Shown piece after piece: positions 16,084-64,000 of a stretch of DNA of 64,000 nucleotides (positions within the stretch are counted from its first letter, which is position 1; the number at the start of each line of letters is the position of its first letter). Both the position numbers and the translations under genes were made by a program. This DNA is from Pisolithus tinctorius (Eukaryota > Basidiomycota > Agaricomycetes > Boletales > Pisolithaceae): the NCBI GenBank assembly GCA_024663395.1, contig JANFAH010000012.1, forward strand, positions 1,586,936-1,650,935, given 5' to 3'. Below the pieces are notes generated by a model, which worked only from the letters and a program-made list of their open reading frames with translations, was not told the DNA's origin and ran no database searches.

Positions 16084-16285
16084 AGGAACGCTTCTTGACT
16101 CCGCTCCACGTGGCACCCCGACTAGGACCCCGAAATCCTAGCAGTACCAGCAGGAAAAGCAGAGCCCGTCGCAAGCAACAGCGACGTATAGCAGCGCCTC
16201 TTAGACCTCAGTCTCGAGACACAAGCATTCAAGCAATTGCTCTCGAATTCACTACCTAGTGAGTCTCCACTTCGTCCACTGACCC

Positions 16286-40213: not shown

Positions 40214-41014
40214 GAATCGTCTTTCATCATAGACAGCACAAGACGGATAGATGCGTATCGATTATCATTGTCGCATTAGTTAACCTTGAATTATAAAGAG
40301 GAAACGTGTAAGATGCATGGGACGTCTCCTCGGGGTGGAATGCTCCGTTGCGCCAGCGCCTTCGGAGACTCTAAATGCTTTCAATACATTCGACAGACGC
40401 CGGAAGCGAGTCACTGCAGGTCACTGCCATTTGAATCCACCAAATTGGCGAAAGCCACTATCCCGTTCGAACTTTGAACTCCCAGTGATTCTGAGCCATG
40501 AGTATCACTCGTTAGGTTTCGTTCCGTCCTTGTCTGTCTCATGATATGATTAAAGTGGTCTCGACGTACCAACAGCCAAAACTTCATCTAGGCGACATCT
40601 TTGCCCTTCAAGTAATTCACATGCGCTGCAGTTTCATTAATCCCTTTGGAGGTCCTACTACATCAACAGACCGCTATGTATCTCCCTTGATAACTAACAC
40701 TGTTTGAGCTCAGGTCAGTTTTCTCGATTTATCTTTTCAATCTCCGAGCACTCAGCCTTTTCAGCGCCAGTGCAGACTCCAATTAACTCTGAATTAGTGT
40801 GCGCAAAGGGTGCCGGTATGGTAGGGAATCCATTTGGGAATATGACCCTGTAGTCTCACTGACAGTTATTTCCCTACATCTATCAACCTCTCAAGACTGA
40901 TGGGAGTGCTAACTCTGTTTAGACTCCGTCAGGGTCTGAGCAAACTTGGTTCCTGGGAAGGTACTTATCATACATCCGTAAGTACATTTAGACCCGGTGA
41001 CCTCCATCTCACAA
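40214..41014. other. No supported gene
   Basis: Intergenic, with only short frames. It probably contains the promoter of the membrane-protein pseudogene. Confidence 0.5.
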
Positions 41015-43230: not shown

Positions 43231-44440
43231 ATGTCCTCAGTGACGAGTTCAGAAGCTGCCGTCAATGCCTTCGTGAACATCATACGTCCGAATTTCGACT
43301 GTCTTATCATAGCGACCGCTTTCTCTGCTTGTTTGCTCACCCTCTTCGTAGTCCTTTTTGCACTATCTACCAAGGAGTCTCGGCGCCGCCTGGCATTCCG
43401 ACTGAATGTCCTTGCCCTTTGTCTCGCCCTAACGACGAGCATATTGTCTTTCTTAACTGATGGGAAGTCCATAGTCGACCCGTTCAATCCGGTGTCGACA
43501 AGTGTGTACCTTGCTGCAATTGTCGTCACTGTCTTCCCACCGTTGTTATACGACTCAATATTGTTAACTCGACTCTTTGCACTCTATCCCCTCTCCAGCA
43601 CACCTCCGACCACTCTATTGAAGATATTTTCATTCCCCTTCTGCGTCAAATGTGCTCGGGTGGTCGCTATTGTAGGTTTTTTCATCGATATTTAGTTCCA
43701 TTCCTGGGTAACGCTTTTCACAGACAGTTGGTATTCATCACTACGTCGTGCCCGGGATGACCACCGAGGTTCCCATCGAGGATGCGTCCTCATACTGGTT
43801 TCGTAGCCCTTATCTGATCGCTGAGTGGACATTGCAAATTGCCGACAACCTGTAAGTTGGCATCCTTCTACGTGATCTGTTGGACATTTTTTCCTCGGAA
43901 GGTACTCTGTTAGCTTTTTTCTTTACAACCTCCACATCCGCACATCGCCAATAAAAAGAGGTGAGGATACCTCCGTGTTTCTCCATACAAATGGATAACT
44001 AATGCATTTCCCGACATGCAGCGCACAGCATTGCGGAGCGCATCCAACAAATTTTCTATGTCTCTGTTGCCAATTTTGTCTTCCCTCTTATGTTCAACAT
44101 CGCACAAATCATCCTCGTAACGACTGATCGGTCCCCCACTGCTGGTGCGGTGGTGCTCTTGATCAACAACTATGTAACTGTCATGGGGGTGTTGTGTGCA
44201 ACGCTGTGGTTCTCAGGGTCAGAGAGGGTTCGGACTCGCAACGAACTGTTACCTGAACACATGCTCAACTCGCCCAGAACAAACTTTGGAAGCCATCATG
44301 TGGCTGACAGGAAGAGCGGGAGCTCAATTATATTAATAGGGAGGGATTCTGTTACACATGACACTACGAGCTTGGACACTGGGACGGATCGCAAGCATCT
44401 CACCACTCCGGAGAAAGAGAACAAATATATCTTGGTGTGA
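43231..44440 (+). CDS. Multi-pass membrane protein, intact paralogue
   Basis: Integral membrane protein with about seven hydrophobic segments, receptor-like in layout but of unknown function. It starts MSSVTSSEAAVNAFVNIIR, then helices such as LLTLFVVLFALS and VYLAAIVVTVFPPLLY. Exon 1 runs to about 43,675 (gtaggt donor). Later exons begin near 43,725, 43,902 and 44,022, giving YWFRSPYLIAEWTLQIADNL, YSVSFFLYNLHIRTSPIKR and VANFVFPLMFNIAQIILV. The cytoplasmic tail after FSGSERVRTRNEL is hydrophilic, and the frame ends at 44,440. It is the intact partner of the broken copy 2.2 kb upstream. Confidence 0.72.
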
Positions 44441-44656
44441 TTTGCCGTGCCCGTCCGCAGTGCACTTACAGGTCTTAAAATGATGATGACGCTTCTGAAG
44501 TTTCATTTCGATGAGCGTTGTACCCGTGATACTCTTGTATGTATTCCTGGACGCATCCTGGTCCAGGTCTGAAAGTTGTTTTGTCCCCCGAGTTTTTGCC
44601 GGTCCGGAAATGCCGGGACATCCATTTAGGGAAAGCGTGGGAGATATGGGGATGGC

Positions 44657-46070
44657 TTGATATTTGGGGAATCTTTCTGTGCACCTGTGTTAATAATGTC
44701 ATGCGATACGCAGGCGACTCAGGTCCATGTGGACGAGGACAGTGGCGCGCGCCGCTTGGTGGTCAACTCTCGGGACTTGGATGGCGCTCGTGATGTTTCC
44801 TATGAGTTTCTTCGTCGGGAATATTCTTTTGATCATGTTACAGTTACAGATGTTATAAACCGGCTTTCTGAGAATCCATTAGGTCCCTATCTTACATGCG
44901 TTCCTTCGAGCGTGCGCGAATTGGTTGAACAGTTTCCCTTTTTTTCGGTGGCTCATCTGAGGGCGATCGCGCAGATTCATGGGGTCTCGCTGCACGGAAG
45001 GTTGCAGCGGGGGATGTGTAAAGATGCTCTACGCTTGCATGATTGTGAAGGATCCTGTCCCTCTGTGTCATATGTATTCCACGTCCTAAAGCGCCCACGG
45101 CACAATTATATATTCGTGCCCGACCTGCACCGGCCATCCAACTCCTATTCCAATGAGTGTTACATGAAGGCGAAGGAAAACACTAAGAAGCAACGGCAGC
45201 GACGAGCGGCAAATGCGCTAGAGGGTCTGGCTCCGGTGGGCCCTCCTGCCGAACCTCCTCTGGTCTCGCCGTTTCCGCCCGTACAATCGTTTGCAGCAAA
45301 GCGCGAGATTATTCGGGAGTGGCAGGTGGAGATGTCCCCTGATCATTTGCAGGAGGGGGTATGCGCTGTCTGCGTCCAGATATTTGCTGCTGAGTTGCTT
45401 GTCGACGTTGTCCCGAGTAAAGAGATGTTATTGACTCTCAATAATAATTGGTTGCCCGCGGAGACACGGCCTCGTACATATGACATCGCCAAATACGAGG
45501 GCGCGATTCTGTGTTGTCATGGCATGTCCTGCCTTGGCAACATCGGGGACCTTCGTATGTGCCTGTGCTGTCGCAGATCCTTGAGCAGCCCGAAGCCGAG
45601 GCAGCCAAAAGATGCGATTGCGAACTTTCAGTACTATGGCGTTAGTGAGCTACCTGTGGATGTGAAATCTGCGCTGGCATGTGCTAGTCAATTTGAGCTA
45701 CAGCTGATTGCGCTGGCCCGGGCGACTGTGATTACCCATCATTATCAAACAAAGGGTGCACGTGGTGGTCGTTTGCCAGAGGAAGCGAGCCAGCGCTTTA
45801 ATAGAGGAAATGTCGCGATTCTGCCGCAGGATCCCGGTGCCTTGCGAACGGTACTCCCCCCAACCACTGCTGAGATTGAGGGCGCGATGTGTGTTGTGTT
45901 TGCAGGTGGCTCTTATCGGCCAACTTTGGATGCTTTATGCAAATTTCCTCCGGTGCTTGTGAATAAGAGCAGGGTGCAGTTGTTAATTGAGTGGCTCATT
46001 GCTCACAACATGTGGTATAAGGCCAACGGCGTTACATTTTCGCAGGATATTTTGGAGTCCTTGCACATGA
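44657..46070 (+). pseudogene. Helitron Rep/helicase protein, N-terminal part (split by insertion)
   Basis: N-terminal region of a Helitron RepHel-type protein as found in basidiomycetes. The likely start is ATG 44,699 (MSCDTQATQVHVDEDSG) or 44,657. It carries paired cysteine motifs, CAVCVQIFAAELL and MCLCCRRSL, typical of the region before the Rep domain. Near the end is VNKSRVQLLIEWLIAHNMWY, the family's linker. The frame is open up to the transposon terminus at 46,071 and then runs into its inverted repeat and subterminal array. The missing continuation lies at 62,649 onward on the same strand, so one gene has been split by the KDZ element. This half itself is undamaged. Confidence 0.75.
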
Positions 46071-46148
46071 TTCAGTCACTTGTAGTCCTAAAAGTGGGTC
46101 ATCCGACATGTACATTTCGTCCTGAAACTGGGACTAACCGACATTGGC
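46071..46148 (+). repeat. KDZ terminal inverted repeat, left
   Basis: Starts TTCAGTCACTTGTAGTCC and contains AAGTGGGTCATCCGACATG and GGGACTAACCGACAT. It is matched by the reverse complement of 62,571-62,648. Confidence 0.9.
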
Positions 46149-46189
46149 CGGTGGTCCCTAGGGTTGGGTAGGCTGGACTGTGAAGGTGG

Positions 46190-47860
46190 GGTCGGCCTAT
46201 GTCACAGGATGATGGATCAACTTCCCTGGAAGTGGGGTCAGCTGACATGACTATAGGATGGATTGATGACCTGGAAGTGAGGTCGGCTGATGCAGCTATG
46301 GGATGAATTAGTGTCCTGGAAGTGGGGTCGGCCGACACAGCTATGGGATGAATTAGTGTCCTAGAAGTGGGGTCGGCCGACACAGCTATGAGATAGATTA
46401 GTGTCCTAGAAGTGGGGTTGGCTGACACAGCTATGAGATAGATTAGTGTCCTAGAAGTGGGGTCAGCCGATGCAGCTATGGGATAGGTTAGTGTCCTGGA
46501 AGTGGGGTTGGCCGACACAGCTATGGGATGAATTAGTGCCCTAGAAGTGGGGTTGGCCGACACAGCTATGAGATAGATTAGTGTCCTAGAAGTGAGGCCA
46601 GCTGACACAGCTATGAGATAGATTAGTGTCCTAGAAGTGGGGTCGGCCGATGCAGCTATGGGATGAATTAGTGCCCTAAAAGTGGGGTCGGCTGACGTAG
46701 CTATGAGATAGATTAGTGTCCTAGAAGTGGGGTCAGCCGACACAGCTATGAGATAGATTAGTGTCCTAGAAGTGGTGTTGGCCGATGCAGCTATGATATA
46801 GATTAGTGTCCTAGAAGTGGGGTCGGCTGATGCAGCTATGGGATAGGTTAGTGTCCTGGAAGTGGGGTTGGCCGACACAGCTATGGGATGAATTAGTGCC
46901 CTAGAAGTGGGGTCGGCCGATGCAGCTATGGGATGAATTAGTGCCCTAGAAGTGGGGTCAGCTGATGCAGCTATGGGATGAATTAGTGCCCTAGAAGTGG
47001 GGTCGGCCAATGCAGCTATGAGATAGATTAGTGTCCTAGAAGTGGGGTCGGCCGATGCAGCTATGGGATAGGTTAGTGTCCTAGAAGTGGGGTCAGCTGA
47101 CACAGCTATGGGATGAATTAGTGCCCTAGAAGTGGGGTCGGCCGACACAGCTATGAGATAGATTAGTGTCCTAGAAGTGGGGTCGGCCGATGCAGCTATG
47201 GGATAGGTTAGTGTCCTGGAAGTGGGGTCGGCCGACACAGCTATGGGATGAATTAGTGTCCTAGAAGTGGGGTCGGCCGATGCAGCTATGAGATAGATTA
47301 GTGTCCTAGAAGTGGGGTCAGCCGACACAGCTATGAGATAGATTAGTGTCCTAGAAGTGGGGTCAGCCGATGCAGCTATGGGATAGGTTAGTGTCCTGGA
47401 AGTGGGGTCAGCTGACACAGCTATGGGATAGATTAGTGTCCTAGAAGTGGGGTCGGCCGACCCAGCTATGAGATGAATTAGTGACCTAGAAGTGGGGTCA
47501 GCCAACACAGCTATGGGATAGATTAGTGACCTGGAAGTGGGGTTGGCCAACACAGCTATGGGATGAATTAGTGACCTGGAAGTGGGGTCAGCCAACACAG
47601 ATGGGATAGATTAGTGACCTGGAAGTGGGGTTGGCCAACACAGCTATGGGATGAATTAGTGACCTGGAAGTGGTGTCAGCTGACACAGCTATGGGATACG
47701 TTAGTGACCTGGAAGTGGGGTTGGCCAAACCAGCTATGGGATATATTAGTGACCTGGAAGTGGGGCCAGCTGACATGGCTGGGGGAAGGGATGATGTCCT
47801 GGCAGTGGGGTCAGCTGATGTGGCTGGGGGGAATGAACCATGACCTGGAGTTGTGGTTGG
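46190..47860 (+). repeat. Left subterminal 45-bp tandem array (about 37 units)
   Basis: Units are 45 bp, each with GGAAGTGGGGTCGGCCGAC or a variant, followed by ACAGCTATGGGATG and AATTAGTG. The core GTCGGCCGAC is a perfect 10-bp palindrome. Variant cores include GTTGGCCGAC, GTCAGCCGAC, GTCGGCTGAC and GTCAGCTGAC, i.e. C-to-T or G-to-A at the CGs. Units nearest the inside (47,495-47,830) are the most changed. The 45-bp period leaves a long open minus-strand frame that is not a gene. Confidence 0.92.
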
Positions 47861-48215
47861 GCAGACACTTTGCAAGAAAGACCAATATCTTGCTAGTGGG
47901 TTAGTGGGGCTGGCCAATCTTATTACTCAGTACACTACTTCCTTGGTAGTTAGCTGGCTGAACCCACATGGTTGTGGAAAAATCCTATATCCTATCCTTA
48001 TCCTGTGGTATTGAAGTTAACTCTACCAATCTGGCCATTGTATTGGAATTAACATTGGGCAAATTTACTCAGTTGTGTATCAGTACTTAAGGAGGAATTG
48101 TCCTGCAGGAAATTACTTTTTTTCTGAACATTCAATGTCATATGAAATTTGAAAACACAAAGCAGCTATTTTTGATTGTAGTACATGCATATCATATGTA
48201 TCAAGGTAGGGTATT
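47861..48215. other. Spacer between the left array and the H3-mimic gene
   Basis: AT-rich. It probably contains the gene's 3' UTR. No coding signal. Confidence 0.45.
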
Positions 48216-49803
48216 TTACAAAGATTCCAACAGCCAGGATGATGTTTGCCCCTTTCCCTGTGTCAGTTTGGTAGCCCCTTTGGACATGCAGATAGTATAG
48301 GTTTGGGGAGGCTGAGATGTGCCTTGTGTGTCCTTCCCACAGCCAGGATTCTTGCACTCATAGGAATAAGTCTGCCCTGAACAACCAGCTTCCCACTTCT
48401 GAATGCTATAACACTGAGGGCACTGGGCAGGCAATTGTTGTCCCCAAGGCCTGATGAACTTGTCAGTCCAGACAAATTTCTCCACCACTACCTTCTCCTG
48501 CCACAACATCAGGATGATGTTGGAGTGCCTACCCAACATACCACAGTCATTCAGGGCATACCTGACTGCACTTTGGACATGGAAGCCTTGAACAAGGGTG
48601 GAGTCAAGGACACTCATGAGGAAGGGAATGGTGGTGACTAGTTGAAGTCTCTCAGCATCAAAAAGCAACATGGACCTTGGCTTGAAACTGATATGGTGTC
48701 AGCCATAGCCACCAACATTGAAAGAAAACCTACTGTTGCACAGCTGCCTTCAGTCCTTGGAAGCTCTGCTCCTTCCTTACAGTAGAACCACATACAAAGA
48801 AGATGAGGTCTCCACCCTTGACAATGTTGGAGAGGGGTAACAGAAGGCCTTGCAGAAACTGCAACTGGTCAGATGGGAGTGACAGTCAAACAATGGTGAC
48901 TTACCTCAAAGACCTCTGTGGCTATTGGAACCTTATTCTCCATTCCAGAGAACAGATCCCCCCTGTCTTCATCAGTATGGGTAGTAAGGAAAATGACTAC
49001 CTTAGCAAAGGTAGTCAGACTTGAAGCTAGCTTTGATGCTGCAGTGTCATAGGCAGCTCTGGACTCCTCAGTGGCAAAGTTGAAGGACAGTTGTGAGAAG
49101 TGGTAGGTGTCTTGTCTGAAATATCCCTGCAACATGGTGTGAAGGATATGCACAGGGGCATGGCCAAGCTCTAGAGACTCAAGGTGGAGGTGGATAATGG
49201 CAGTAGAGTTACCAGCCACTTCAGAGGTGGTGGCATGCTCAAACCCCCCAATGACCACAAGAGGGTGTTTCAGGACTGGCTTGCCTGACAAGTAGAAGCC
49301 CTGTACTTGGAGTTAGAAGTGATTGGGGTGGCAATATGCACTTACAAAATAGGGCTGAGGACTTTCAAATCTTGTCATTTTCCAATGACAGGCAACACAC
49401 CTGAAGTTCATCCAGAGTTTGAGTCAATGGAATTAATTCATAAAAGGGAGGTTAACACACCTGAAGGTCACAGGAAGCTGGGTGACCTCTGCAAGGCAAT
49501 CCTCAGGTACTACAACACACTTGTTACACACTACCCTTCTGCATCCTGCCTGATCACAAGGCCACAATGTCCCTCCATCCCTGCACATCACACAGAACTG
49601 CATAGAATGTTAGAAAGATGGATGGAATATAACAAGAGACTTGCCAAGTTCCTCATCCTTCTCTTCTTGGCAACAGGGGCCTTCCTAGCATGGGCCTTGC
49701 TTGACTTGGCAGCATGTTTTTCCCTAGCTTTCAGACCAGCAAGAGATACCCTGGGAGCTCTACCCCCAGTGGTCTTCTTAGCTGTCTGCTTGGTCTTCAC
49801 CAT
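48216..49803 (-). CDS. Histone H3 tail-mimic zinc-finger protein (KDZ cargo)
   Basis: Protein whose first 17 residues after Met (VKTKQTAKKTTGGRAPR) copy the histone H3 tail (ARTKQTARKSTGGKAPR). Positions 4 and 9 are both lysine, and T3, Q5, T6, A7, T11, G12, G13, A15, P16 and R17 are kept. A basic stretch (KHAAKSSKAHARKAPVAKKR) follows. The next exons give a PHD-like finger (FCVMCRDGGTLWPCDQAGC, then VVCNKCVV) and CVACHW. After it come a globular part (YLSGKPVLKHPLVVIGGFEH; VVIFLTTHTDEDRGDLF; GGDLIFFVCGS) and a C-terminal zinc ribbon (CPQCYSIQKW, then YECKNPGCG). The frame ends at 48,216. Introns are short; the first seems to use a GC donor (gcaagt). I know similar H3-tail proteins from Agaricomycete genomes. 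A role in binding H3-tail readers or modifiers is inferred. Confidence 0.82.
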
Positions 49804-50079
49804 CTGAGTGTATTATGCCAACATTAGTGAGTGGCAGCAACATGACACAGAAGGGAACAGTAGCATACCTTATTATCTTTACAAGACACAGAAGGTGTAG
49901 GGGACAAGCAGTAAGATAACAATAAATGCATTTAGTTTAGTACATATATCATGCAGCAAGGATGGATATCTACATATTTATGGAAAAGACAAGCCAATGT
50001 ATGCAACTACACAACACTGGGCACTGGATAAGCAGACCAAAGAGGGTGATATGTAAGTATCATCTGGACACCATGAAGT
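49804..50079 (-). promoter_or_regulatory. 5' leader of the H3-mimic gene
   Basis: AT-rich segment between the start codon and the intron-like array. A donor-like AAGGTATGTTG lies near 50,092 on the minus strand. Confidence 0.35.
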
Positions 50080-51240
50080 AGAAGTCCAACAACATACCTT
50101 ATTGGATGAGACACAGCAAGGGAGATGCAGTGTGGCAGGAGGGAGATATGAATTGATAGCCTACTAGTGTGTTTTGTGAGTGGTACAGGGACACCAGGAA
50201 CTGGGACAACATACCTTTTGTAGGATGAGACACAGCAAGGGGGTGTTCTGTGAGTGGTAGAGGGATGCCACGACCTGGGACGACATACCTTTTTTTTTTT
50301 GATAAGGCACGGCGAGGGGGTGTTCTGTGAGTTGTAGAGGGACGCCGCGAAGCTGGGACAACACACCTTTTTTTTTGGATGAGCACAGCGAGGGGGTGGT
50401 CTGTGGGTGTTTTGTGAGTTGTAGAGGGACGCTGCGCGAGCTGGGACGACGTACCTTTTTTTTGGATGAGGCACGGCGAGGGGGTGTTCTGTGAGTTGTA
50501 GAGGGATGCCGCGAAGCTGGGACGACATACCTTTTTTTTTTTGGATGAGCACGGCGAGGGGTGTTCTGTGAGTGGTAGAGGGACGCTGCGACCTGGGACG
50601 ACTTACCTTTTGTTTTTTGATAAGGCACGGCGAGGGGGTGTTCTGTGGGTGTTTTGTGAGTGGTAGAGGGACGCCACGAGCTGGGACGACGTACCTTTTT
50701 TTGGATGAGGCACGGCGAGGAGGTGTTCTGTGAGTGGTAGAGGGACGCCGTGACCTGGGACGACTTACCTTTTTTTTGGATAAGGCACGGCGAGGGGGTG
50801 TTCTGTGAGTTGTAGAGGGATGCCGCGAAGCTGGGACGACATACCTTTTTTTTTGGATGAGCACGGCGAGGGGGTGTTCTGTGAGTGGTAGAGGGACGCC
50901 GCGACCTGGGACGACTTACCTTTTGTTTTTTTGATAAGGCACGGCGAGGGGGTGTTCTGTGAGTTGTAGAGGGATGCCGCAAAGTTGGGACGACATACCT
51001 TTTTTTTGGATAAGCACGGCAAGGGGGTGTTTTTGTGAGTGGTAGAGGGACGCCGGGAAGTAGGACGACATACCTGTTTTGTGGATGAGACAAGGCGAGA
51101 GGGTGTTCTGTGAGTGGTAGAGAGATGCCGCGCACTGGGATGACATACCTGTTTTTTGGATGAGACCCGGCAAGAGGAGGGGGGTGTTTTGTGAGTTGTA
51201 GAGGGACGCTGCGAGCTACTTACCTTCTTTTTGAATGAAT
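50080..51240 (-). repeat. Tandem array of intron-like 70-90-bp units
   Basis: About 13 units. On the minus strand each has an A-run, then GGTATGTCGTCCCAG or a version with GTACGT or GTAAGT, then GCGGC-like text and CCCTCTACAACTCACAG, then AACACCCCCTCGCCGTGC. Every unit therefore has a fungal 5' splice-site consensus and, about 45 bp later, a CACAG 3' site. The array lies upstream of the H3-mimic gene on its sense strand, so it may be a repeated 5' UTR intron. It is CG-rich, unlike the rest of the element. Confidence 0.75.
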
Positions 51241-52127
51241 GGGCTTTGTGAGTAGTATGGGACACTGAACAACGCGCAATAGACTGAGAAGAATGGCAGT
51301 GTCCTGGTGTGTGATGTGAGTGTTGAAGCCATGAGAGGTTCGACAACATACCTTTTTTGTTTTTTTTTGAAGGAGACACGGCACGACGTACCTATTTTGT
51401 GTTTAGAGAGGGAGAGGTGCGAGAGATCCAGAGGACGACGACGTACCAAAAATTTCGCTGAGACGCAGCAGGGCCAGAGAGTGGGATAACGCAACGACGG
51501 TCGGTGAGGGAGACACTGTGTGGCAAGAGGAGAGGAGCAAAAGACCGTGTCAATCTGGATACTCGGATGCACAGATCTCGATTTTGGACAGGTCACGTAG
51601 TGAGACCTATGATAATCTTGGACACAACCTTAATTGTGACATGAACAACGTCACGGCTGTCATGATTATCACACGTGTCTACCCGTACTTCGGATGCGTC
51701 TCTGGAACATTACGTAGGACTATATACGGAGTGGTCCATCGCCGCTAGGCCGATTTCCGGTTTCAATAAGTGACTACATGTATTAAATGATCTGGTAGTG
51801 CTACTACAATACATTTTCTGTGAAATCCCAAGGGTAAGCCACCACTACCGCTCAGACCAACGGCACGAGGGAGTGCTTGCTCGGCTCGACAATGCAATTA
51901 CGAGAATGTCAAGCGAACATTTAGTATTTAGTATATAGAAGCCGAATCCGGTGACAGTGGAGTCACGTGACATCGCTATTCACGATGTATAGTACGACAC
52001 GCGGTACTGACTCAGAGGAAGTTGCCAGCACTCACGGCAACTGAACACGCACTGAGGCCGAGAACGTGACATTGACAGCGACCTCACTAGTTGGACTGTG
52101 GCCAAACAACGGTACATAAGACTCAAG
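51241..52127. promoter_or_regulatory. CG-rich divergent control region
   Basis: Lies between the minus-strand leader and the plus-strand TATA box. More splice-donor-like sites (acatacc, cgtacc on the plus strand) continue to about 51,447. CG dinucleotides are common here but rare in the flanking genes. No coding exon is supported. Confidence 0.4.
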
Positions 52128-52135
52128 TATATAAA
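52128..52135 (+). promoter_or_regulatory. TATA box of the TET/JBP-KDZ side
   Basis: TATATAAA, followed by a strongly pyrimidine-rich stretch (52,190-52,290) and a consensus splice donor (AAG then gtaagt at 52,315). This looks like a promoter plus a noncoding first exon. Confidence 0.55.
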
Positions 52136-52314
52136 TCCCCCCCAGTCAGTGGCATATTTTTTCCCTTACTGCGTTTCTCTGCGATGTGATGCTTCCCCTC
52201 CGTCGTCCTCCCTCTCCCTCCATCTCCATCCTCCCTTTCCCCCTCTCTCTTTCCCGTTTCTGTGCTACGTCATCTTCGTTTTTATCTCAGCCCATCGTCT
52301 CGGCTGTCATAAGG

Positions 52315-53664
52315 TAAGTGGCACCTCTGATCCCAGAATTTTCACATTACTTGATTACCGTTACTTTGCAGCATCCTTGGCGCCTCACTATTGACTGTAG
52401 TCTGCAGCTACAGGATGTAGGGAGGGGCTACCCTTGACCTTAGATTGTGCTTGGCCAGCGCAATTTTTGGTTGTTGGGTAATATGTTGGGTCTGGGGGAA
52501 TAGTCTGTGCCTACATTGTAGGCCAGCTCATGGATCTGGGGGCTAGTCTGTACCTACATTGTAGGTCAGCTTATGACATTTTATTTGGTCTGTACCCACC
52601 TGTGTGGGTCAGCCTATGACGTTTTTTTTGTGTGGTATGTGTTGGTATATATTGGTAGTAGCTAGTTGGTCAGGCTTTGGTGTAGTGAGTATTCACTTCT
52701 GTATAATCTATGTTGTACTGACATAAACTTTCTAGAGCTGTTTATCTTTGACTCCTGGTGAATAAAGAGTGCACCTCAGGTATGTGAACTTTGCAAAGTT
52801 CTGTTGATGCTAATGTGTTTTTAGGATCTTTGTTATCAGCTTTTGTGCGCTTTTTTGGGAACTTGGTTGAATTGAGGACGGTTTTATTGGCCCAACTGTA
52901 CTTCTGGAGGAGGGCCCCCTCTGGAATGCAGGCAAGCCTTGGTTTCTTATGAAACCATTATACCTTTGTAGTTGAAATTGTAACTGTAGTTGAATTTATG
53001 TATGACCTTGTAAATGTCACTGCTTTGATTGGATTTGAATGCTGTGTGGGAATCTATGCTTCTTTTTTTGAATGAAGCATGTGCTAACCCTAACCCTAGC
53101 ATAAGACTTGGTGTATTTCTTCATGCAAGTCTGCTTCTAACCCTAACCTTAGCAAATGACTTGGTGTATTGTTTCATGTCAGTCTGCCTGGCTGGTGGAT
53201 GGTGCTAGATTAGCACTGGTGTTCCATGGCTGATCTTCTTAAGCAAGGTTTCCCTTTGATGCTCAAGAGCTTGCCAATGGCATTACTAGCAACCCAACAT
53301 CTTCCCTTCAAATGCTGTCTGGATGTGTTCCTAGCTGTTGGATGTTGCTAGATTGCTAGATTAGTATTGGTGTTCCATGGTTTCCCATGATGCTCAAGAG
53401 ATTGCTGGACTGGATTGACTTGGAGTTCAACTGCTGCTGAGTTTGATTGCACCATTCCAGGCCCCTGCTTACATGACTAGATGTTTCAAGAAACATGGTG
53501 TATCTAGTAGACTAAGTTGGGTTTCTGGATTCTGGATCTTCCCCCAAGTCAAGCAAGGTCCCTTGTGGAGAATAACTTCCTACTTATGTACTGAGTGATT
53601 TTTAACTATTTTTCTTGCGGTTGAAAAATTTTCCTTTGACTTTTCCAACACCCCCCACATCATC
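52315..53664. other. Leader/intron region before the TET/JBP gene
   Basis: CG-poor, with repeated phrases such as GGTCTGTACC and GGGTCAGC near 52,490-52,620, and a degenerate direct repeat of about 60 bp at 53,085-53,190. Two short CCCTAA pairs are present. No protein-like frame. Probably intronic or 5' UTR of the dioxygenase transcript. Confidence 0.4.
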
Positions 53665-55010
53665 ATGGATGATTCCCTGCATACAATGGTGGTTGGAATG
53701 CTGAAGGCTGCCTTTGGAACAGTCCCTATGATCTCTTCCAGCTCTATTTTCTCAAATCACCAGCTCAGGAAGCCAAGGTAAGCCATAAGCAGTGATGCTA
53801 CACTTGCTATGTATTTAGTTGGATAATAGACTTCGATCCTTGGCTGAGTTAACCCAAGTCAGGGCAACATTGCAAGGGGAATCTGGTCTAACTTCAGATG
53901 CTATTACATCTTTGGAAGTTAGGCTGGCATCCGCAGTCATTACACATGCCATCCTCAATCCCTGTAGGTGATTTCCACAACAATTCCAAGTGATCCAAGT
54001 CTGACCCTTAATAGATGTGTTGCATTGGGATGCAGACAGGTTTTCTGAACCATTGGTGCATGCCAAGGACAGGACCATCCATTTTGAAAACCCAAAAATT
54101 GGGTATATCAATGCTCCTGCCACAGTTCTGGATGTGCATGGCAGGGTGATAGTATGGTATCTGCCTGGTATTGTCCCAGATGCACGGATAGTGAGTGTTT
54201 TCATTCTCTGACAACCCTTCACTACAGCTTTTATATCATAGGAACTTCTCAATTCCCTTCTCCTTTCCATAAAAGACAATCTTCAGACTGAGCCCAAGAA
54301 CAAGCCAAAAGACAAAAGCAAGCTTAACAAACGATATGGCCATAAGCATCAGCCTGTTGACCAAGTCATGTATGGACATGGCAGGATTTCCATGTCTCCT
54401 GCCACATTCCAACAGGCTCATGAGGTTTGTCCAGGTGCTGTGATTTCCATGGTAGGGGCTGACAAATTTAAAGAGGTTGGTTGATACACTCTATCAAAGC
54501 ACATCCCTCAAACAGAAAGCCAATAGGGAATGGCTGCTCAAGATTTCTTATGTGGAACACTTCTGGAGCAATATAGCAAAGGTCTCATTGCCAGATATGG
54601 CCAGGGCTGGTGATCAAGCAATGTTGGCCAAGGCTGGCAGGGTGGAGAATGAGATATCCCTGGATTGGCCATCGGTCTATACCAACATTGATATTATTGT
54701 CAATCAGGAAACTCCCTCTCACCGAGATGTCACATCCACCCCAACCCTTCTGGATTCATTAGTGAGCCTGGGTTCTCACAATGCTAAATTCCTTATTCCA
54801 GATCTGGGGGCCGAACTGGCTTATTCCCCAGGCACCATGATTTTCCTATCAGGAAAAATCCTTCAACATTCTGTGCCAAAGTGGGAGAAGGGAGAAAGAA
54901 TTGCATTGGTGCATTATATGAAGGACAAAGTACATGACCGACTCAAGGTCACAAGACCAGCATGGACTACCCAAAAGGACATTCTTGGGTTGGCTGTCAG
55001 ATACACTTAA
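53665..55010 (+). CDS. TET/JBP-family 2-oxoglutarate/Fe(II) dioxygenase (KDZ cargo)
   Basis: Predicted to oxidise 5-methylcytosine (or thymine) in DNA, as family members do. Exons: up to about 53,778 (GGWNAEGCLWNSPYDLFQLY), 53,820 to about 53,964 (LAELTQVRATL; ASAVITHAILNP), 54,015-54,189 (RFSEPLVHAKDRTIHFENPK; GRVIVWYLPGIVPDARI), 54,241-54,475, and 54,520-55,010. The last exon has the core: NQETPSHRDVTSTP with the HxD iron motif, LLDSLVSLGSH, LAYSPGTMIFLSG, the distal iron histidine in ILQHSVPKW, and the 2-oxoglutarate arginine in GERIALVHYM. These residues are all present. Oddity: the ATG at 53,665 is one base out of frame with the first conserved block, at a CCC run (53,675-53,677), so the start may be wrong or altered. 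Confidence 0.85.
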
Positions 55011-55154
55011 AACACATTTTAGTGGCAATTTTTGGGTACAAATATTTTAAATACATTTGATAACCTTGTTCTGGACTTGTGTGGTGTTGTTTTGGGGATG
55101 AAAAATTTTCAATACAGCTGAAAACCTTGCTTTTGACTCTTCCTGTGCTCAATC

Positions 55155-58100
55155 ATGTGTCGTCGTAGAACCAAAGTCCTTGGCAAAAGCTCTGCAGGAG
55201 GTTTGTATAAATTTGAAGTCACTAAAACCCGGAGAGGAAAGGACACCTACAAGGAGGTGGATGCTAGACACCTCTACCTCCCATCTCAGAGTCAACCTTC
55301 AACTCCAAGGACCCCCAGGACAATAGGCTCCCAAAATGTTGTCCCAGACTCCTTTGACATGCCTACCTTGGACTGGAATGATGAGGAAGATACCCCAAAT
55401 ACTAGGAGGGTTACCAAGGTGGGAAGTTTTGCCTGATACTGCATTGGCTAAATTATCCCCTAGAGTCAAAATGATTTCATCAGAGAATGGCTGCCTTGGA
55501 GAGCAGAATATCTCAAAGTCATTCTCAGGGAGAGCAGCTGGCTAAGGGGGGATATGTGAGCAGTGCTGTCAGGCAGAAGGAAGTATCAGATGCATGTCCT
55601 GCATTGGTGTGCATGCCTGGTGTGGTCCTTGTGCTGTGAAAGTGCATCAAAATCTTCCATTCCACAAGGTACAAAGATGGAATGCTACTCATTACCAGGC
55701 TACCTCTTTGATGGCACTTGGGTTCCTTTGGCACATTGGCCATGGGGGTCCCTTGCCCTCAAAACAGACAGAATCAGGATCCAGACTCAGAGGAGTTGGG
55801 CTATACTTCTGGGGAAGGGCCTCCCAATTACAGGTCAATGGCAGTCATATCCTGTAGCCTCCATGTTAACCTCTGGTAGCAGGAGATCCTTCAGATCAAA
55901 AATGACCATAGTGCACACAGAAGGAATTTTCACTCATGAGATTTCTTGGTGCAATTGCCCTGGGTCAGATCCAATGGACTGGCACCTTGATTTACTCAGG
56001 GAAAGACTCTTTCCAGCCAGTATAACAAAGCCCAAGACTGCTTTCACCTTTGATGTTCTTAATCACTTTCTCATTGATGCCCTGGAATGCAAGACTTCAG
56101 CTATGAGTTTCTATCAGAAGCTGAAGAGGTTCACCAACAATGCATTTCCTGACTGTATACCAGTTGAGTGCCATGCACTATTTGCTCTTAGGGGGTTCTA
56201 TTAATGCATTCATTTCCAATTAGGACAGGTACCGAGAGCTGATGAGGGTTTCCAGACTGTGGAGGGATTTGAAACATAGGAAATGGTTTGGCTTTGGTCA
56301 TGATAAAGAACAAGATCCTAGACAAGGAGAACTTGCACTCTTTTGTCCTGCCTGCCCACAACCAGGTATTAATTTACCTCCAGATTGGAAAACCTGATAT
56401 GACAGGTATGGAGTGATAATCTGTAGGGTTTTGATTTCTAACTCCCCTCCCCCCTTAGTGATACCATAATGAGGCAATATGTCATGGATGGCAACTTCAC
56501 TGCTCAGCATATGAAAATGAACAAGCCTGAGTTGGATGTGTCATTATCAGATGGAACTGGTTACATGGTTGCTGAAAAGCCCTACCAGGCCCATCTTGAG
56601 CAGTCTTTGGATAACAAGGAGGTGAGTTGTCCCAAGGTCATGGAGTTTAAATGACCCACTGTACTGGTAGAGATCCACCTGCAGCAATCACAGGGCAATC
56701 AATGCTGCTAATATTAACAAGTCCAATCTCCGGTCCACTGGGATTGGTGCCACAGCCTGTGCTCGGCATGGTTGCTTTGTTCCCCATTCTGTGGTGGACT
56801 TTCAGAAAGGGGAAAAGTGAGTGGACCTGATGGATGTACTGGAAGCCTTTGGAACTCATTTTGTGCTAGGTACATGAACACAGATTACTCCATCTGCAGT
56901 GCTCTTGATTATCATTCAGAAAGCATCACAAAGGCCCTTGTCATTTATGATGTTGGGTGCCAGTGGAGTATTAACTTCCAGAGTCGGGTAAAATCCAGCT
57001 GCTCTCCCATCTCCCTCCCTCCCTGGAAATCATTCCTGCTGTGGGGAAGTTTCATCTTGCTGCCCACAAACTCTCTTGCTTTCCAAGATATAGCCTCAAC
57101 TTTATCAAGGGTGCTGGTCATCTGGATGGTGAAATTTTGGAGACATTGTGGGCTCCATTCAATAAGATCTCTCCCACTGCAAGGTCTATGACTCAGGCCC
57201 ACAGACAAGAAGTGTATGATGACCATATGAGAGATTCTAACTGGAAAAAAATTGTCAACATGGGTGAGAGACCTTTTCTTCAAAGAGAAGTTAATTTACC
57301 CTGTACATCTCAGTTCCTGCACTGTTGAAAAAATACAAGACCTCACACAAGTGCCTAGAAGAAATGAATCAGGCATATGAGCAGTTGACAGCTGTTCTAG
57401 ACCCTGGCCAACTTGCCCAATGGGAGTCGGATGTTCTTGAGGCAGAAGCAAATCGAGGTGATTCCCTAGACATTTATTTGTTGAAAGGGGAAAAAGGTCA
57501 GTATGTTCCTAAGAAACCCTGGGCATGTCTGATGGCCTGTAGCCCCTACCATGGGTGAAGTGCAGTTAAAGCTCATGAAAAATCCACCTGTGTCCCCAGG
57601 GAGCCATGGTTCTGTGGCTTGGCTTGTGGAAGGAATTAGCATAGAGGATGCACAGTATGGTCTGTGGTTTCCAGAAGCAATAGGTTGCTAACCAGACCTG
57701 CAGGGACCAGCTAAGATCTGAGCTTAGACAGAGCCACATGTCTACCAGACAAGAAATCAAAGTCTCAGAGAAAAGAAAAAGACTTTCTGCCAGGATTGAC
57801 AAATTCCATGGCACCAGCCAGGCATTTCTCAAAGGTTTGGAGGTGGATGATGTCTTCATACCCCAGGATGATCCAGCATTCCTTGGGCAAGGTGAAGAAA
57901 TTGATGACAATGGAGAGTACTGGGAAGATGATGAGGATTGGGAGGCTACAGAAGAAGGAGAGGAGCTACCTGCTGAGCTCATGAGTATATGGATGCCCTC
58001 ATCCATTGGAGCAACCAAACTGATGGAGCTTGGCCTTCATGACCTCCTCAAAGAAGAAATGGAACTCAGGATTGGGCAAGCTAATGATTGTCTAGACCAG

Positions 58101-58750
58101 CTCCGAACCAACCTTGGACACAAGGCAATGTTATACAGACAGAACTTCCGCAGTGCACAATCAACTAGGGAAGGTACAAGAACCAAGCAGGACATCCAAA
58201 AAGTGGTGGCTCGGATAAACAAGCAGGTCAGAAGTTATCAGAGGGCAAGGCAGGCCATTCTCCAGTTGGAACCCAATCAAGAGATTGGACAAAGATATCA
58301 GGCTATTCAGCCCCAGGACCTGGCAGTGAGTAAGGATGTTACAGAGGAGAACCGGTTTGGGCAGGGAACCAGCAAAATGGCATGGTTTTGGATGATGGAT
58401 GGTGAACAGGGTCAACTGAATGCTGAGAAGGGGGGTTTAATGGAGGAGTGTAAGTGTTAATACTACTCAAAAAAATCTCACCAATAAATTGTGGGGCAGT
58501 TTACAGGATCAACTGGCTCAAAGCAAGGGCAAGAAGGGACAGGTGGAAAGAAGAATTGTCATTGGTGAGGCATGAGATGGTTTGGGCCATCTTATGGTTT
58601 GAGTTCCAGAAGGACATATGGGAGAAAAGGGCTCTACAATTGTTGGAACCAGGGAAAAAGGCTTATGCTCATAAGCAGATAGTGTTGTGGACTGACTTTT
58701 CCAAAAAGGCCCAATTGATGTTCCAAGGTAAACAAATGGATTGTATTTAG
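55155..58750 (+). CDS. KDZ-type DDE transposase with CxC zinc cluster, apparent frameshift
   Basis: Transposase expected to mobilise the element. Exon 1 (55,155-55,418) starts MCRRRTKVLGKSSAGG. The cysteine cluster follows: CEQCCQAEGSIRCMSCIGVH, WCGPCAVKVHQNLPFHKVQR, and later ISWCNCPGSDPMDWHLDLLR. The catalytic acids are D in YVMDGNFTAQHMK, D in VIYDVGCQWSINF and E in DGEILETLWAPFN. Before the last is GKFHLAAHKLSCF and after it ARSMTQAHRQEVYDDHMRD. Long helical C-terminal exons run to 58,750. Oddity: passing from WLRG into CEQCC needs one G fewer in the six-G run at 55,546-55,551, so the gene is either broken or misread there. Exon limits between 55,700 and 57,600 are approximate. Almost no CG dinucleotides. 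Confidence 0.85.
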
Positions 58751-58983
58751 AACATGGGTATATGTGTATAGTTTTCCGATTACCCTTGCTTTGCACTTGG
58801 TATCTGAATCAAAGTGAATAGCAAATACATCAAAACAATCATACCATAATGGTACCTTTCCTAAAAGAGTGATGGCCGAAAACTTCAACCTCCTGCCTAA
58901 ATTGGGAAAGGCTGAAAAATTTTCACCTTGCTTCCAACCTCCATCATCTGTGCTGCTAATTATCCCCCTGATTTTATTCTCTC

Positions 58984-61362
58984 ATGGCTGATTGGTCTGA
59001 AGTCTACTCTGATCTGCTGTCCTCCTATGTGGAGCAGTACACAGATGCCCGAGGGAATCCTGACCTCAGGGCCCAGATCCTGGCTGATGTGAAATCCCAG
59101 ATCCTTCAGCAAGCATCTTCAGGATCTGTGGAATTGCCCCAGAACTTGAGAGTGGTAGGGTATCTTTTTCATCAAGTTTCACATATCTCAAGTGTATTTA
59201 GGCCATCAGAAGGGTGTTTTTGCCAGAACTAGACCCTGAAGACCAGGATGATGAGGAACACATCATTGAGAGCATCCTGGCTGCAACAGACAAGAGGAAG
59301 GAGCAGCCTGGGACTGGTGAGGATGAGGATGGCAGAGAGGAGAGGACCAGACCTACCAAGGCTGGAAATTACAGAAAACCCTTCACTGATTTTACTGCCT
59401 CCCAGCAGCTCTTCAAAGAGGACATGGATGCCTATGATAGGGAGAGGAGGGACACCAAGGACCCCAAGACCATAGGTCAGAGGACCAAAATCATCCAACA
59501 GTGGTGGGAGTCTCTTGCAGATGACAAGAAGGCTGAAGCAGGGAGGGCTGCTTCCAAGTGGAATAAGTTGGGAGCTCCAAAAGAAACTCATGAATTGTCA
59601 GTGCTGGTCTACTTCAAATGTCTTATACTAATCATGCAATAATTCAGGTACAGGAGAAAAAATTTTCCCAACATGGCCAGAGACTTTATTGAAACAGTCA
59701 GGAGGACCATGGGGTCAAATATAGTGATGTTTCTGGCTCATGAGACTACTGATTCTCAGATCAAGATGGCAGTGTAGGTTCCCCTTTACCTTGTCTATCC
59801 AATGCTAATGAAGAAACCTAGCTTTGAAACACAACCCCCTGATGGGAAGAAGGCCTTCTCAGAGTCTTCAGAGCCCACCAAGGATTGGGTTCTAAAGGGA
59901 GAGCAAATGTTAACCAATTATCTTTTGACTGAAGCTGGTAAGTGATAAACATTGGTGATCAATGTAATATGTGTACCTAGGTTGATTCCATACTCAGCTG
60001 AGGAAGATTTGAATGATGAGAATCCAAAGGTGGAGATAGCCTTGGATGATGAAGGAAACCCAGAGGTACCAGCTTGGACTGGTCAGAAACTCAAGGTCCA
60101 GCAGAGTTTGGCAAGAATGGTCTTCCAGGCTGCCTATGGTATGTTCTTGATTGTCAAGTGCATCTACAGTTGTTGATGGAAGTTGGAAACATAGCAAAGT
60201 TTACAGGGAAGCCCAAGGCCAAGGTTCCCTGGGGCCTGCTTATCAAGTCCCATTTGGAGTATCTGAGTTCCGATTCCATCCCAGAAGGATTCATGATGAA
60301 AGATCCTTCAAAATGGACCAAGGCCGACATGTGGATGCTTTGGAATCATTGGAATTCCCAAGAGGAGGAGGATAAGGTGATTGTTTCATTCATCAAGTGC
60401 AAAAAGGAGGACGAGCCATTGGGAAGGCCCTGGAACAGGAAAACCCCATCCAAAAAGAGAGAGTGGATGAGCCCTGGGGAGGACAGTGAAGCTGGGGTGG
60501 AGGCCAAGCCCTCAGATTTAGGGGAAGAAATTGGTGGGGCTGGTATGACCCCTATAGCAACTTCATCAGGGGCCCAGGATATCCTTGACTCTGGGAGGGC
60601 CCCATCTGAAGATACCCCTCATGAATCCAGCCCTGCTTGTCATGCCAATGGGGACAGGGTGAAATATTTAAAGTCCCTTTGCATCATGCCCAGGTACCAG
60701 GAACTTGTTGAGCTTGTAGATGGCTTGCCAGAGACAGTAAGTGATAAACTTTCTTCAAATACCAGGTTAACAAACATTTTGTACAGGAACCTGATGCTGG
60801 ACCAGTCAACCTGCCTGTCTGGGCATCTTGGGCCTGGAGTGCCCAGTATTTGCCCCAGGAGATGCATGGCAATGGGGATTCCTTCTGGAAGGCACTGTAT
60901 CAATTGCAAAGTGAAAAGTTTGCATCCACCCAAAAAGGTCTTACCATTGTACTGGGATTTGGTTTGTTGTGGAGGGAGTGCAAAAGAGCACAGGACATAG
61001 AATCAGATGACCCTGAAGCTGCTAATCTGGGCTTTTTGCTAGGCTCAGGTCTTGATATCCACAAGGGGGAAGATGTTATGGGTGCAGTGGGGCTGGTAGT
61101 TGCAAGACTGCAGCAGAATTCTGGTGGCTCAAGCAGAGGGATTGGTGCACAGGAAACAACTGGGGTCAGTGCAGGGGATTCCTGTCCCACCCAGGGGGGT
61201 GGCATGAAGGAATCCCAGAATACAAGAAAGGATGTGAGGAAAAGAAAAAGGGGAGGCAGTGGGGATGTTGATCAGAAGATGGCAAAGGAGGGTGAAGAGG
61301 CAAGCAAGAAATCAACTAGAGCTCGTCAACCAACCAAGAGAGCTCTGGGTCTTGGTCTATAA
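58984..61362 (+). CDS. KDZ cargo protein, possibly HMG-like
   Basis: Multi-exon gene starting MADWSEVYSDLLSSYVEQYT. A conserved-looking block, YRKPFTDFTASQQLFKED with KIIQQWWESLADDKKAEAGR soon after, resembles an HMG-box helix pattern (aromatic start, WxxL, lysine-rich), but this is only a suggestion. The next exons give VRRTMGSNIVMFLAHETTDS, KVPWGLLIKSHLEYLSSDS and KADMWMLWNHWNSQEEE. The last exon holds YLPQEMHGNGDSFWKALYQL and ends in a highly basic tail (RKRKRGGS; STRARQPTKRALGLGL) at 61,362. It lies 3' of the transposase on the same strand inside the right array, so it belongs to the element. DNA or chromatin binding is inferred from the basic tail. Confidence 0.65.
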
Positions 61363-61639
61363 ATAAACTGTAGATGGTGTGAATCAAAAGGATCCCTATA
61401 TATGGCTACCCATGCTCATTGCAAGTTTCAAACCCTGTGAGATCACTGACATCACCTGGAGGTGAAGAATGGCCATGGATTCAGGGGGTAAGGCCACCCC
61501 CCAGTGAGGTTGGCCAACACTGGTCTCAGGGGGTATGTCCATCTGGAAGTGTCATCAGAGTCAATACTTCTGGTAACATCTAAATTGACAAGCAATTGAT
61601 TATGCCAAGGGAATTTTCAGGGTTTGGCCAACCCTACTT
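61363..61639. other. Spacer before the right array
   Basis: Contains decayed array-like motifs such as GAGGTTGGCCAAC near 61,505. No gene. Confidence 0.4.
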
Positions 61640-62535
61640 CCAGGTGGTGAGGTCTGTGTCCATCCCCCAGTGAAATTGGCCAACACCACTTCCAGGGTGT
61701 GAGTCCATCCCCCAGTGAGGTCGGCCGACACCACTTCCAGGGTGTGGGTCCATCGCCCAGTGAGGTCGGCCGACACCACTTCCAGGGTGTGGGTCCATCC
61801 CAGTGAGGTCGGCCGACACCACTTCCAGGGTGTGGGTCCATCGTCCAGTGAGGTCGGCCGACACCACTTCCAGGGTGTGGGTCCATCCCAGTGAGGTCGG
61901 CCGACACCACTTCCAGGGTGTGGGTCCATCCCCCAGTGAGGTCGGCCGACACCACTTCCAGGGTGTGGGTCCATCATCCAGTGAGGTCGGCCGACACCAC
62001 TTCCAGGGTGTGGGTCCATCCCAGTGAGGTCGGCCGACACCACTTCCAGGGTGTGGATCCATCGTCCAGTGAGGTCGGCCGACACCACTTCCAGGGTGTG
62101 GGTCCATCCCCCAGTGAGGTCGGCCGACACCACTTCCAGGGTGTGGGTCCATCCCCAGTGAGGTCGGCCGACACCACTTCCAGGGTGTGGGTCCATCCCC
62201 CAGTGAGGTCGGCTGACACCACTTCCAGGGTGTGGGTCCATCGCCAGTGAGGTCGGCCAACACCACTTCCAGGGTGTGGGTCCATCCCCAGTGAGGTCGG
62301 CCGACACCACTTCCAGGGTGTGGGTCCATCGTCCAGTGAGGTCGGCCGACACCACTTCCAGGGTGGATCCATCGTCCAGTGAGGTCGGCCGACACCACTT
62401 CCAGGGTGTGGATCCATTGTCCAGTGAGGTCAGCCAACACCACTTCCAGGGTGTGGGTCCATCGCCCAGTGAGGTCAGCCGACACCACTTCCAGGGTGTG
62501 GATCCATCCCCCAGTGAGGTCGGCCGACCTCCCTC
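61640..62535 (-). repeat. Right subterminal 43-45-bp tandem array (about 20 units)
   Basis: On the minus strand the unit reads CCTGGAAGTGGTGTCGGCCG then ACCTCACTGGG, sharing the GGAAGTGG core and the GTCGGCCGAC palindrome with the left array in inverted orientation. Most units keep the perfect palindrome. Changed units lie mainly at the inner edge (61,500-61,690) and near 62,420-62,490. Confidence 0.92.
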
Positions 62536-62570
62536 CAACATGTCAGCCTATCCACCATCAGGGTCTATAG

Positions 62571-62648
62571 GCCGATGTCGGTTAGTCCCACTTTCAGGAC
62601 CAAATGTGCATGTCGGATGACCCACTTTCTGGATTACATGTGACTGAA
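62571..62648 (-). repeat. KDZ terminal inverted repeat, right
   Basis: On the minus strand it starts TTCAGTCACATGTAATCC and contains the same AAGTGGGTCATCCGACATG and GGGACTAACCGACAT blocks as the left end. Confidence 0.9.
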
Positions 62649-64000
62649 GGGTCTGGTCCTTGGTGGTTGGTGACGGAGAGGAGGGTTTGTTGGCTGGGAT
62701 GCAAATTACACACCTGCCTGATGCGGGTTCGATGCCCACATCCTGTGGGGCAGAGTGGGACATGCTGTCGAATGACCTTGTTACAGAGTGTGTGTGGCCT
62801 ATACTCAGGGGGACCACTCAGAGCGTTCTCGTCGGGCAATGAAGGCTGGGGCCCTTGCCCATGCATTGCAAGGCAAGAAGTTCGTTGTTAGTCATTCGGG
62901 TTCCCAGTTCCTTGGCGACGATTCTCCGTGTTTTCTGAGTGCGCTGTTTCCACATTTGGATCCGTGGGTATTGGGGGCTTCAACCATCCTGCTCGGGAGC
63001 CTAGCCAGCGTTTGTCATTCCAATGGCAGGTTAGAAATTTGTTATGCCAGGTCGACTCGCCTTTTATGCGTGATCCTTCCTTCGCATTCATCTGTTGGAA
63101 CATTATGCAGAAGCGTGCGGCAAATGATAACACAGTGTTTTGCATTCCATCAGCACGTCGTCACTCTCTGGTCAAAGAGTTGCATGAGAACGAGGGGTTC
63201 GTGCGCTCGCTCGCGCAGAGATTCGAGTGCGACGCGCACGCTAAGGTTGTTTCTCCAGGCGAGCGTCAGGCCTTGCAGTTATTCCGTGAGCTTAGTGTCG
63301 TTTCCAGAACCTTGCCAGGCAGTGATGGCTACAAGTTATGTAGACGGAATGAGATATGCTCGCTCATTCGCAGATTAGGCACACCTGCATTTTTGTGACT
63401 TTTAAACCCGCACGACCTCACCATTGTTCTTGTAGGGCATTTTGGGGGGTTGGAAGCATCTCGCTGGCGTACCCTCTCTGCGTACGATCATGCAAGTTTT
63501 GTTGCCTCCCATCCTGGTGCTGCCGTGAGGGCGTTCGATTGTATTATTCAGGGCTTTCTTCGTATCGTGGTCAAATACAACAGGGGGGTTGGACTGTTTG
63601 GGAAATGTTCGGGGTATTATGGGATGGTGGAGGCCCAGGGTCGCGGTACACTTCATTGTCATATGTTGTTGTGGGTGGAGGGCAATCCGAATCCTGAACG
63701 TCTGTGATCTTTGATGCTGGAGAGCACTGCATTTGAAGATGAAGTGTTGCAGTGGTTGGAAGATCTCATCAAATGTGAGCTGCCGGGGACAACCATCAAG
63801 AACATGTTTTCGTTGTTCGGTGACTCGAAGAAACCCCATCATCGGGAGGGCACAGAGGATCCCCAGTTGCTTGCCCCTCCTTGTGTGGATGACATGGAGG
63901 AGGACTTGTTTCGTCTGCAGTACGAGGATCTTGTACAGCGGCTAGCTGTGGAATGTAATTGGCACGAACATACTGCAACATGCTTCAAAAACCTTCGCCT
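62649..64000 (+). pseudogene. Helitron Rep/helicase protein, continuation with Rep (HUH) domain, degenerate
   Basis: Continuation of the split Helitron gene, running off the window. It resumes with DGEEGLLAGMQITHLPDAGS, then HSERSRRAMKAGAL. The Helitron_like_N (Rep) domain follows with HFGGLEASRW and the nuclease HUH-type motif GRGTLHCHMLLW near 63,640-63,672. The frame changes near 62,790 and again at the GGG run 62,965-62,967 (one G short before GIGGF). In-frame TGA codons lie near 63,396 and at 63,705-63,707. After each the family sequence continues (LNPHDLTIVLVG; SLMLESTAFEDEV). This half cannot be translated as it stands. Confidence 0.75.

Follow-up and report, generated by a model that had tools for sequence, protein, structure and literature searches.

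The genome of Pisolithus tinctorius contains, in the stretch of 64,000 nucleotides analysed here (hereafter the window, lying at the end of contig 12 in an assembly of 92.5 Mb and 221 contigs), a gene whose predicted product begins with a close imitation of the tail of histone H3. This raises the questions of whether the resemblance is due to chance, whether it belongs to a complete protein maintained by selection, and what an H3-like N-terminus might do for a mobile element. The analyses described below indicate that the gene is almost certainly a transposon gene with a selected H3 mimic, and it is tentatively proposed that the target of the tail is the finger or the protease domain of the same protein.

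The gene and its domains

The H3-like tail, MVKTKQTAKKTTGGRAPR, is encoded by 18 codons on the minus strand (49750..49803), where the DNA read downward from 49803 is MVKTKQTAKKTTGGRAPRVSLAGLKAREKHAAKSSKAHARKAPVAKKRRMRN and the ATG occupies 49803-49801. The frame that an earlier note on this DNA had reported at 49752..49803 is present at that place; a plus-strand reading of the region was rejected because of the stops present in it. Two host H3 exons (L045 and L046) read MARTKQTARKTTGGKAPR, and two others (L043 and L044) are the same up to residue 15, where their exons end. The tail is identical to the H3 of P. tinctorius itself at 14 of the 18 residues, Met counted, the differences being A1V, R2K, R8K and K14R. 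The list of changes given in the earlier note holds for R2K, R8K and K14R, but it omitted A1V and included S10T, a position at which the tail carries the host H3 residue.

A 105-residue N-terminal piece matched histone H3 of the PDB in a phmmer search (E=2.6e-4). A degenerate codon pattern for the H3-like N-terminus has 56 matches in the genome, comprising four H3 genes, one H3-like fragment and 51 members of the tail-gene family (40 of the window type), and the reversed pattern has none. Twenty shuffled tails reached at most 9/18 anywhere in the 149 relatives described below, as against 9-17 for the real tail in 116 of them. Chance resemblance to H3 was ruled out on these pattern and shuffling counts. 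Since the 447-residue protein has no match to the Pfam histone fold (PF00125), it is regarded as an H3 mimic and not as a histone. An H3-like exon fragment, MPRTKQTARKTTGGTAPRKQ, also stands ahead of another reading frame at C2:4630070 (L068), outside the tail-gene family.

The tail gene consists of six minus-strand exons that join without a stop. Exon 1 (49645..49803, 53 residues) encodes the H3-like tail and a basic linker, exon 2 (49461..49597) most of a PHD/ADD-like finger, exon 3 (49346..49400) the end of the finger (CVACHW), exon 4 (48905..49300) the first half of a caspase/CHAT-like domain with a putative catalytic His (codon 48977-48979, residue 225), exon 5 (48734..48858) the putative catalytic Cys (codon 48790-48792, residue 272), and exon 6 (48216..48687) the end of the protease-like domain, a C-terminal cysteine cluster (CPQC...C...CGK, with a weak Zn-ribbon match under the cut-off) and the stop. 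Pfam scans of the single exons returned weak matches only. The finger had been described as following the tail directly; it is joined to the tail in frame in one open gene, but some 35 residues of basic linker separate the two, together with the 47-nt intron 1 (49598..49644, minus strand), a GC-AG intron with a CTAAC branch-like motif.

Several deposited models of window-type genes (P0001, P0006, P0010, P0014 and P0017) keep the tail and lose the finger wholly or mostly, and it seems that the GC donor of intron 1 misleads gene finders in these. The same donor, together with the absence of a recognisable finger from many deposited models, could be taken to mean that the gene model is an artefact and that actual transcripts do not connect the tail exon with the finger. 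This is highly improbable, as the donor GCAAGT is retained in 30/30 loci, window copy included, other deposited models (P0021, P0024, P0028 and others) do join tail to finger, and P0025 and P0027, on contigs of just 1.7 and 1.5 kb, run without interruption from the tail through the finger to the protease domain, which suggests that they derive from spliced transcripts. A separate gene for the tail exon was likewise rejected, since the six exons join without a stop and relatives carry tail and finger together. We infer that the tail gene is spliced accordingly in vivo. When the 30 loci, including the window copy, were scored for stops and missing bases, insertions not being among the defects counted, 25 were without an extra stop or missing exon base; the damaged ones are L015 (a 7-base gap) and L017, L018, L037 and L038 (an extra stop, with a 1-base gap also in L037).

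A profile of 17 fingers matched CHD4, SP140, PHF21A, AIRE and ATRX first (E 4.7e-5 to 1.5e-3); the 57 sequences matched up to E=1 also include weaker PDB matches, among them TRIM24, MLL, DPF3 and RING fingers. Single-sequence Pfam assignments of the 17 are ambiguous, PHD being reported in 10 (best E 1e-4) and CK_II_beta in 10 (best 0.0022). All eight zinc ligands are present, and the acidic residue of the 'CRDG' motif, which in AIRE makes contact with unmodified K4, is nearly invariant. The finger is thus very likely of PHD type, as had been proposed, and in profile comparison it is nearest to PHD/ADD readers of H3 with unmodified K4, so that binding to such H3 is predicted. It shares with the readers named above the zinc-finger profile and the acidic residue, and differs from them in a Cys at the classical PHD His position and in the company of its own H3-like tail.

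The remainder of the protein was missed by the earlier note. Its alpha/beta domain has, in predicted structures and fold comparison, a caspase/CHAT-like fold whose nearest match comes from a SAVED-CHAT filament, and a clan-CD fold is predicted with high confidence. The His and the Cys are each present in 61/61 of the rows with a residue at that position; from their location at strand ends and a non-significant alignment, the pair would match the catalytic residues. The alignment is that of the profile with two distinct host CHAT sequences (E=0.13), in a register that pairs His with His and Cys with Cys. Pfam CHAT was reported neither in the 447-residue protein nor at the three host loci scanned, and the domain is therefore called CHAT-like and not filed as CHAT. 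It resembles the CHAT and caspase-like clan CD proteases (SAVED-CHAT, C11, caspases) in fold and in the position of the invariant His-Cys, and differs from them in its new partner domains and in that neither Pfam CHAT nor host CHAT proteins match it significantly in sequence. An active protease is predicted as reasonably probable. In both AlphaFold models residues 1-12 have pLDDT of about 37 and are not docked, only residues 13-20 or so being partly ordered.

Conservation of the tail among relatives and paralogues

Two database searches identified 149 related proteins, 135 of them from eight Pisolithus and 21 Suillus names and one Rhizopogon; the search required shared exact words and similar length, and its result says nothing of absence from other orders. 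The tail was found in 116 of the 149, which are related and not independent sequences, and the other 33 score below 9/18, some of them being fragments or late starts. K4 and K9 are nearly fixed among the 116 (114 and 113, respectively), and G12 (115), R17 (102), T3 (102), A15 (104) and P16 (98) are widely kept. Consistent departures from H3 are also seen: residue 8 is K in 77 tails, K14 is K in just 26, and residue 18, K in H3, is V or I in 112. The initial Met is present in 108, the next residue being A, V, T or P.

The regions of the protein were compared in 57 of 65 rows with the tail aligned, reduced to 29 by dereplication at 75%. Mean identity in these 29 is 63% for the tail, 23% for the linker, 47% for the finger and 40-44% for other parts; between Pisolithus and Suillus/Rhizopogon the corresponding values are 59%, 16%, 38% and 25-35%. 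Among the relatives no other region of the protein is conserved as well as the tail, which suggests that the tail serves the element in disturbing the chromatin that keeps the transposon silent. Because it is 59% identical between genera as against 16-38% in the other regions, with K4 and K9 almost fixed, the tail is considered to be selected and not a product of chance. Among the paralogues, DNA comparisons agree with this, synonymous differences being high (pS from 0.61 to saturation) and nonsynonymous ones low (pN of 0.16-0.39), the exception being the most worn form, L060 (pN 0.36-0.56). Both the conservation of the tail in homologues and the purifying selection on it, which the earlier note had put forward for checking, are borne out by these values, and on sequence comparison the tail is an H3 mimic under purifying selection. 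The tail codons of the 30 loci show no amino-acid change and two silent changes, which alone says little because most copies are recent.

Distant paralogues in the P. tinctorius genome retain tail and finger (MPRTKQTAKKSNGGVAPR, MARTKQTAKKSACGTATR), and more worn tails read MARTRQNTKK and MVRTRSSTKN; two worn paralogues, L058 and L060, have R at K4. The L057 type has just two copies with MPRTKQTAKKSNGG tails (C48:90285 and C21:752524), possibly two alleles of a resident gene. Around stand-alone paralogues, no TET or KDZ was found within 8 kb upstream (C48, C16) or 8-9 kb downstream (C16, C7), Pfam scans of 10 ORFs beside two of them detected no TET or KDZ and one weak F-box match, and BLAST of ORFs from four flank loci against the window ORFs gave nothing at 1e-3. 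A search with residues 1-110 of P0076 yielded 24 candidates and 11 matches, all from Suillus or Rhizopogon. In a tree of exon 4 the Suillus-type sequences stand apart from the Pisolithus-type ones; the columns are few, and long branches leave the placement of the stand-alone paralogues unsure. At silent sites the window tail stands closer to the host H3 gene L043, with pS 0.46, than to its own paralogues, with 0.77-0.91, and it may have originated from H3 or have been converted later.

The transposon and its TET/JBP gene

The tail gene lies within an element of 16,592 bp (46064..62655), delimited by shared sequence and inverted ends, which is taken to be a TET/JBP-carrying KDZ-type transposon with CA...TG ends, flanked by the 7-bp target-site duplication GTCCTTG on the left (46057..46063) and on the right (62656..62662). 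The left limit is the point, 46064, from which the window copy abruptly shares its sequence with those on C82 and C66, and the right limit, 62655, is seen in the window and C82 copies; the C82 copy has the same ends and is flanked on both sides by a different duplication, GGAGTAC. The inverted ends are identical at 69/80 and 81/100 positions, with a local score of 153 as against a maximum of 22 in 50 shuffles. The earlier description of the product as a transposon protein agrees with these ends and duplications around the gene. Contig C195 is 99.5% identical to the window over 40643-48130; since the identity runs beyond the element's end, C195 looks like the other haplotype.

Beyond the start of the tail gene, on the plus strand, are a TET/JBP dioxygenase exon (54456..55010; PF12851, 36.7 bits, cut-off 34.9) and the CxC2 cysteine cluster of a predicted KDZ transposase gene (55560..56204; PF18803, 84.4 bits, cut-off 27), followed on the same strand by an exon with a partial KDZ transposase match (56718..57191; PF18758, scored on the unspliced exon, 21.7 bits, E=1.8e-4, under the 26.6 cut-off). 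The neighbouring DNA-demethylating enzyme mentioned in the earlier note is thus a TET/JBP gene of the same element. A 75-77-bp tandem array (50169-51214) lies between the divergent tail and TET genes, at the place expected of their promoters. Minisatellites of 45 bp near the left (46225..47765) and right (61651..62528) ends have a common core, GGTCGGCCGACA, and may be transposase-binding arrays. A further plus-strand frame (58975-59642, MADWSEVYSDLLSSYVEQYTD...), with a similar start in P0074 of P. orientalis, gave no Pfam match in the piece scanned. Other features of the window include a HET-domain protein with a TPR match (10347-13448), a retroelement with endonuclease, reverse transcriptase and RNase H (16283-22064) and a DDE_Tnp_4 transposase (25755-26657).

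When 49 tail loci of the genome were counted (50 rows, two C20 rows merged), 40 proved to have a close copy of the TET gene upstream in divergent orientation at no more than 40 kb. The median distance in the 40 is 4.8 kb, and 32 lie at 3.9-5.9 kb; two distances, 26.5 and 39.6 kb, may fall outside real linkage. From the TET side, where the first 45 rows were counted as 41 loci, only C13:1264243 is without a tail gene partner. A sister form at C42 has the same divergent arrangement, with 60% identity in the TET exon and 53% in exon 4. Genome-wide, stops occur in 9 of the 34 best matches to the TET exon and in none of the 40 best matches to exon 4, the two differing in length (184 and 132 residues, respectively).

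The element shares a TET/JBP gene, a predicted CxC2/KDZ transposase, 7-bp duplications and CA..TG ends with the TET-carrying Kyakuja (KDZ) elements of Agaricomycetes, as these are described in passages of PMC12730594; the Laccaria Kyakuja is described there as lacking terminal inverted repeats, which the Pisolithus element has. In the main-text passages of that paper (Kojima 2025) escape from silencing is proposed for TET alone, no mention of an H3-like or protease gene was found, and Pisolithus and Suillus have no occurrences in the main text.

Possible roles of the H3-like tail

It is proposed, tentatively and from the sequences, that the protein is a chromatin-directed cysteine protease whose H3-like N-terminus fills its own finger or active site. 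The finger would direct the protein to H3 tails that lack methylation at K4, as they do in silenced chromatin, where a chromatin protein would be cut by the protease; the target might be H3 or a silencing factor bound to it. The N-terminus would act as a built-in competitor or pseudosubstrate for the finger or active site, either within its own molecule or in an adjacent one, and would leave this place through cleavage or on displacement by nucleosomal H3. The protein, presumed to be nuclear, to bind H3 and to serve the element, would thus remove the histone side of silencing, and TET the DNA methylation; the pairing with TET suggests a function in escape from silencing. Points against this proposal are the undocked residues 1-12, the lack of a significant CHAT match, the ambiguous single-sequence scans of the finger and its Cys at the classical His position, the R at K4 in two worn paralogues, and the finding of no TET or KDZ in the 8-9 kb flanks of stand-alone paralogues.

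The principal alternative, raised in the earlier note for methyltransferases and readers, is that the tail works in trans as a decoy. A free H3-like N-terminus would then titrate or recruit host H3K4 or H3K9 writers, erasers or readers, an example with a precedent being SNAG-like docking to an LSD1-type demethylase, or would block the readers connecting H3 marks with DNA methylation. An imitation extending over about 17 residues, the near-fixed K4 and K9, a possible free N-terminus and the pairing with TET are all in keeping with a decoy, which is nevertheless thought rather unlikely. Residue 8 is often K and K14 rarely K (77 and 26 of 116), which makes it less likely that each H3 mark is faithfully copied. 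These frequencies and the V or I at residue 18 in 112 speak against a decoy, which also leaves unexplained the H3-type finger and the protease fold in the same chain. The reason why mimic, finger and protease fold remain associated across genera, the mimic under the strongest constraint, has to be accounted for; action of the tail on its own protein explains the association and is favoured, whereas a decoy in trans explains the length and the near-fixed K4 and K9.

Two further readings appear considerably less probable. The tail of one molecule might bind the finger of the next, so that oligomers or filaments form in which the protease is activated or held along chromatin; such an assembly could account for both the length of the mimic and the company of domains, and the joint conservation of tail and finger and the nearest fold match, a SAVED-CHAT filament protein, accord with it, although that filament is not known to form via such a tail. 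It is equally doubtful that the basic N-terminus does no more than mediate nuclear import or DNA contact, as a remnant of an ancient fusion to an exon of H3, without recognition of H3 partners. H3 tails do serve import, the linker is basic, and the silent sites are nearer to L043 than to the paralogues; however, charge alone would not fix T3, G12, A15, P16 and R17, and the basic linker itself drifts to 16% identity between genera.

A more specific form of the self-ligand proposal, put forward with less assurance than the general one, is a self-inhibited transposon protease that would clip H3 or a silencing factor on H3, with the tail as a pseudosubstrate freed once the finger encounters nucleosomes unmethylated at K4. 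The positions at which the tail regularly differs from H3, by V or I at residue 18 and by the frequent loss of K14, might then mark where H3 is cut and the mimic spared. The protease folds of Prb1 and cathepsin L differ from the caspase/CHAT-like one. The sole likeness to these H3 tail clipping proteases, yeast Prb1 and cathepsin L, as portrayed in portions of PMC11477362 and PMC12269491, is the proposed outcome, removal of the marked H3 tail; a passage of PMC12269491 reports that H3 clipping in yeast induces gene activation.

A search limited to open-licence papers found no earlier description of these observations. Histone mimics, mostly viral, have a short imitation of the H3 tail in common with the Pisolithus protein, which differs in that its imitation covers about 17 residues from the very N-terminus, is conserved over genera, is carried on a transposon and shares its polypeptide with an H3-type finger and a protease fold. 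The novelty would lie in how the parts are combined, since all of them are of kinds already known, and the function is a predicted one.

Resistance to silencing through attack on DNA methylation is already known in transposons. A long, conserved H3-tail mimic carried by a transposon and joined to an H3-type finger and a caspase-like fold would give the contest over silencing a further arm, directed at histones. The 116 natural tails show which H3 residues are kept (K4, K9, G12, A15 and R17) and which are dropped (K14 and K18). If the reading as a self-inhibited clipping protease is true, a single element would oppose silencing in two ways, through DNA demethylation and through the removal of histone tails.
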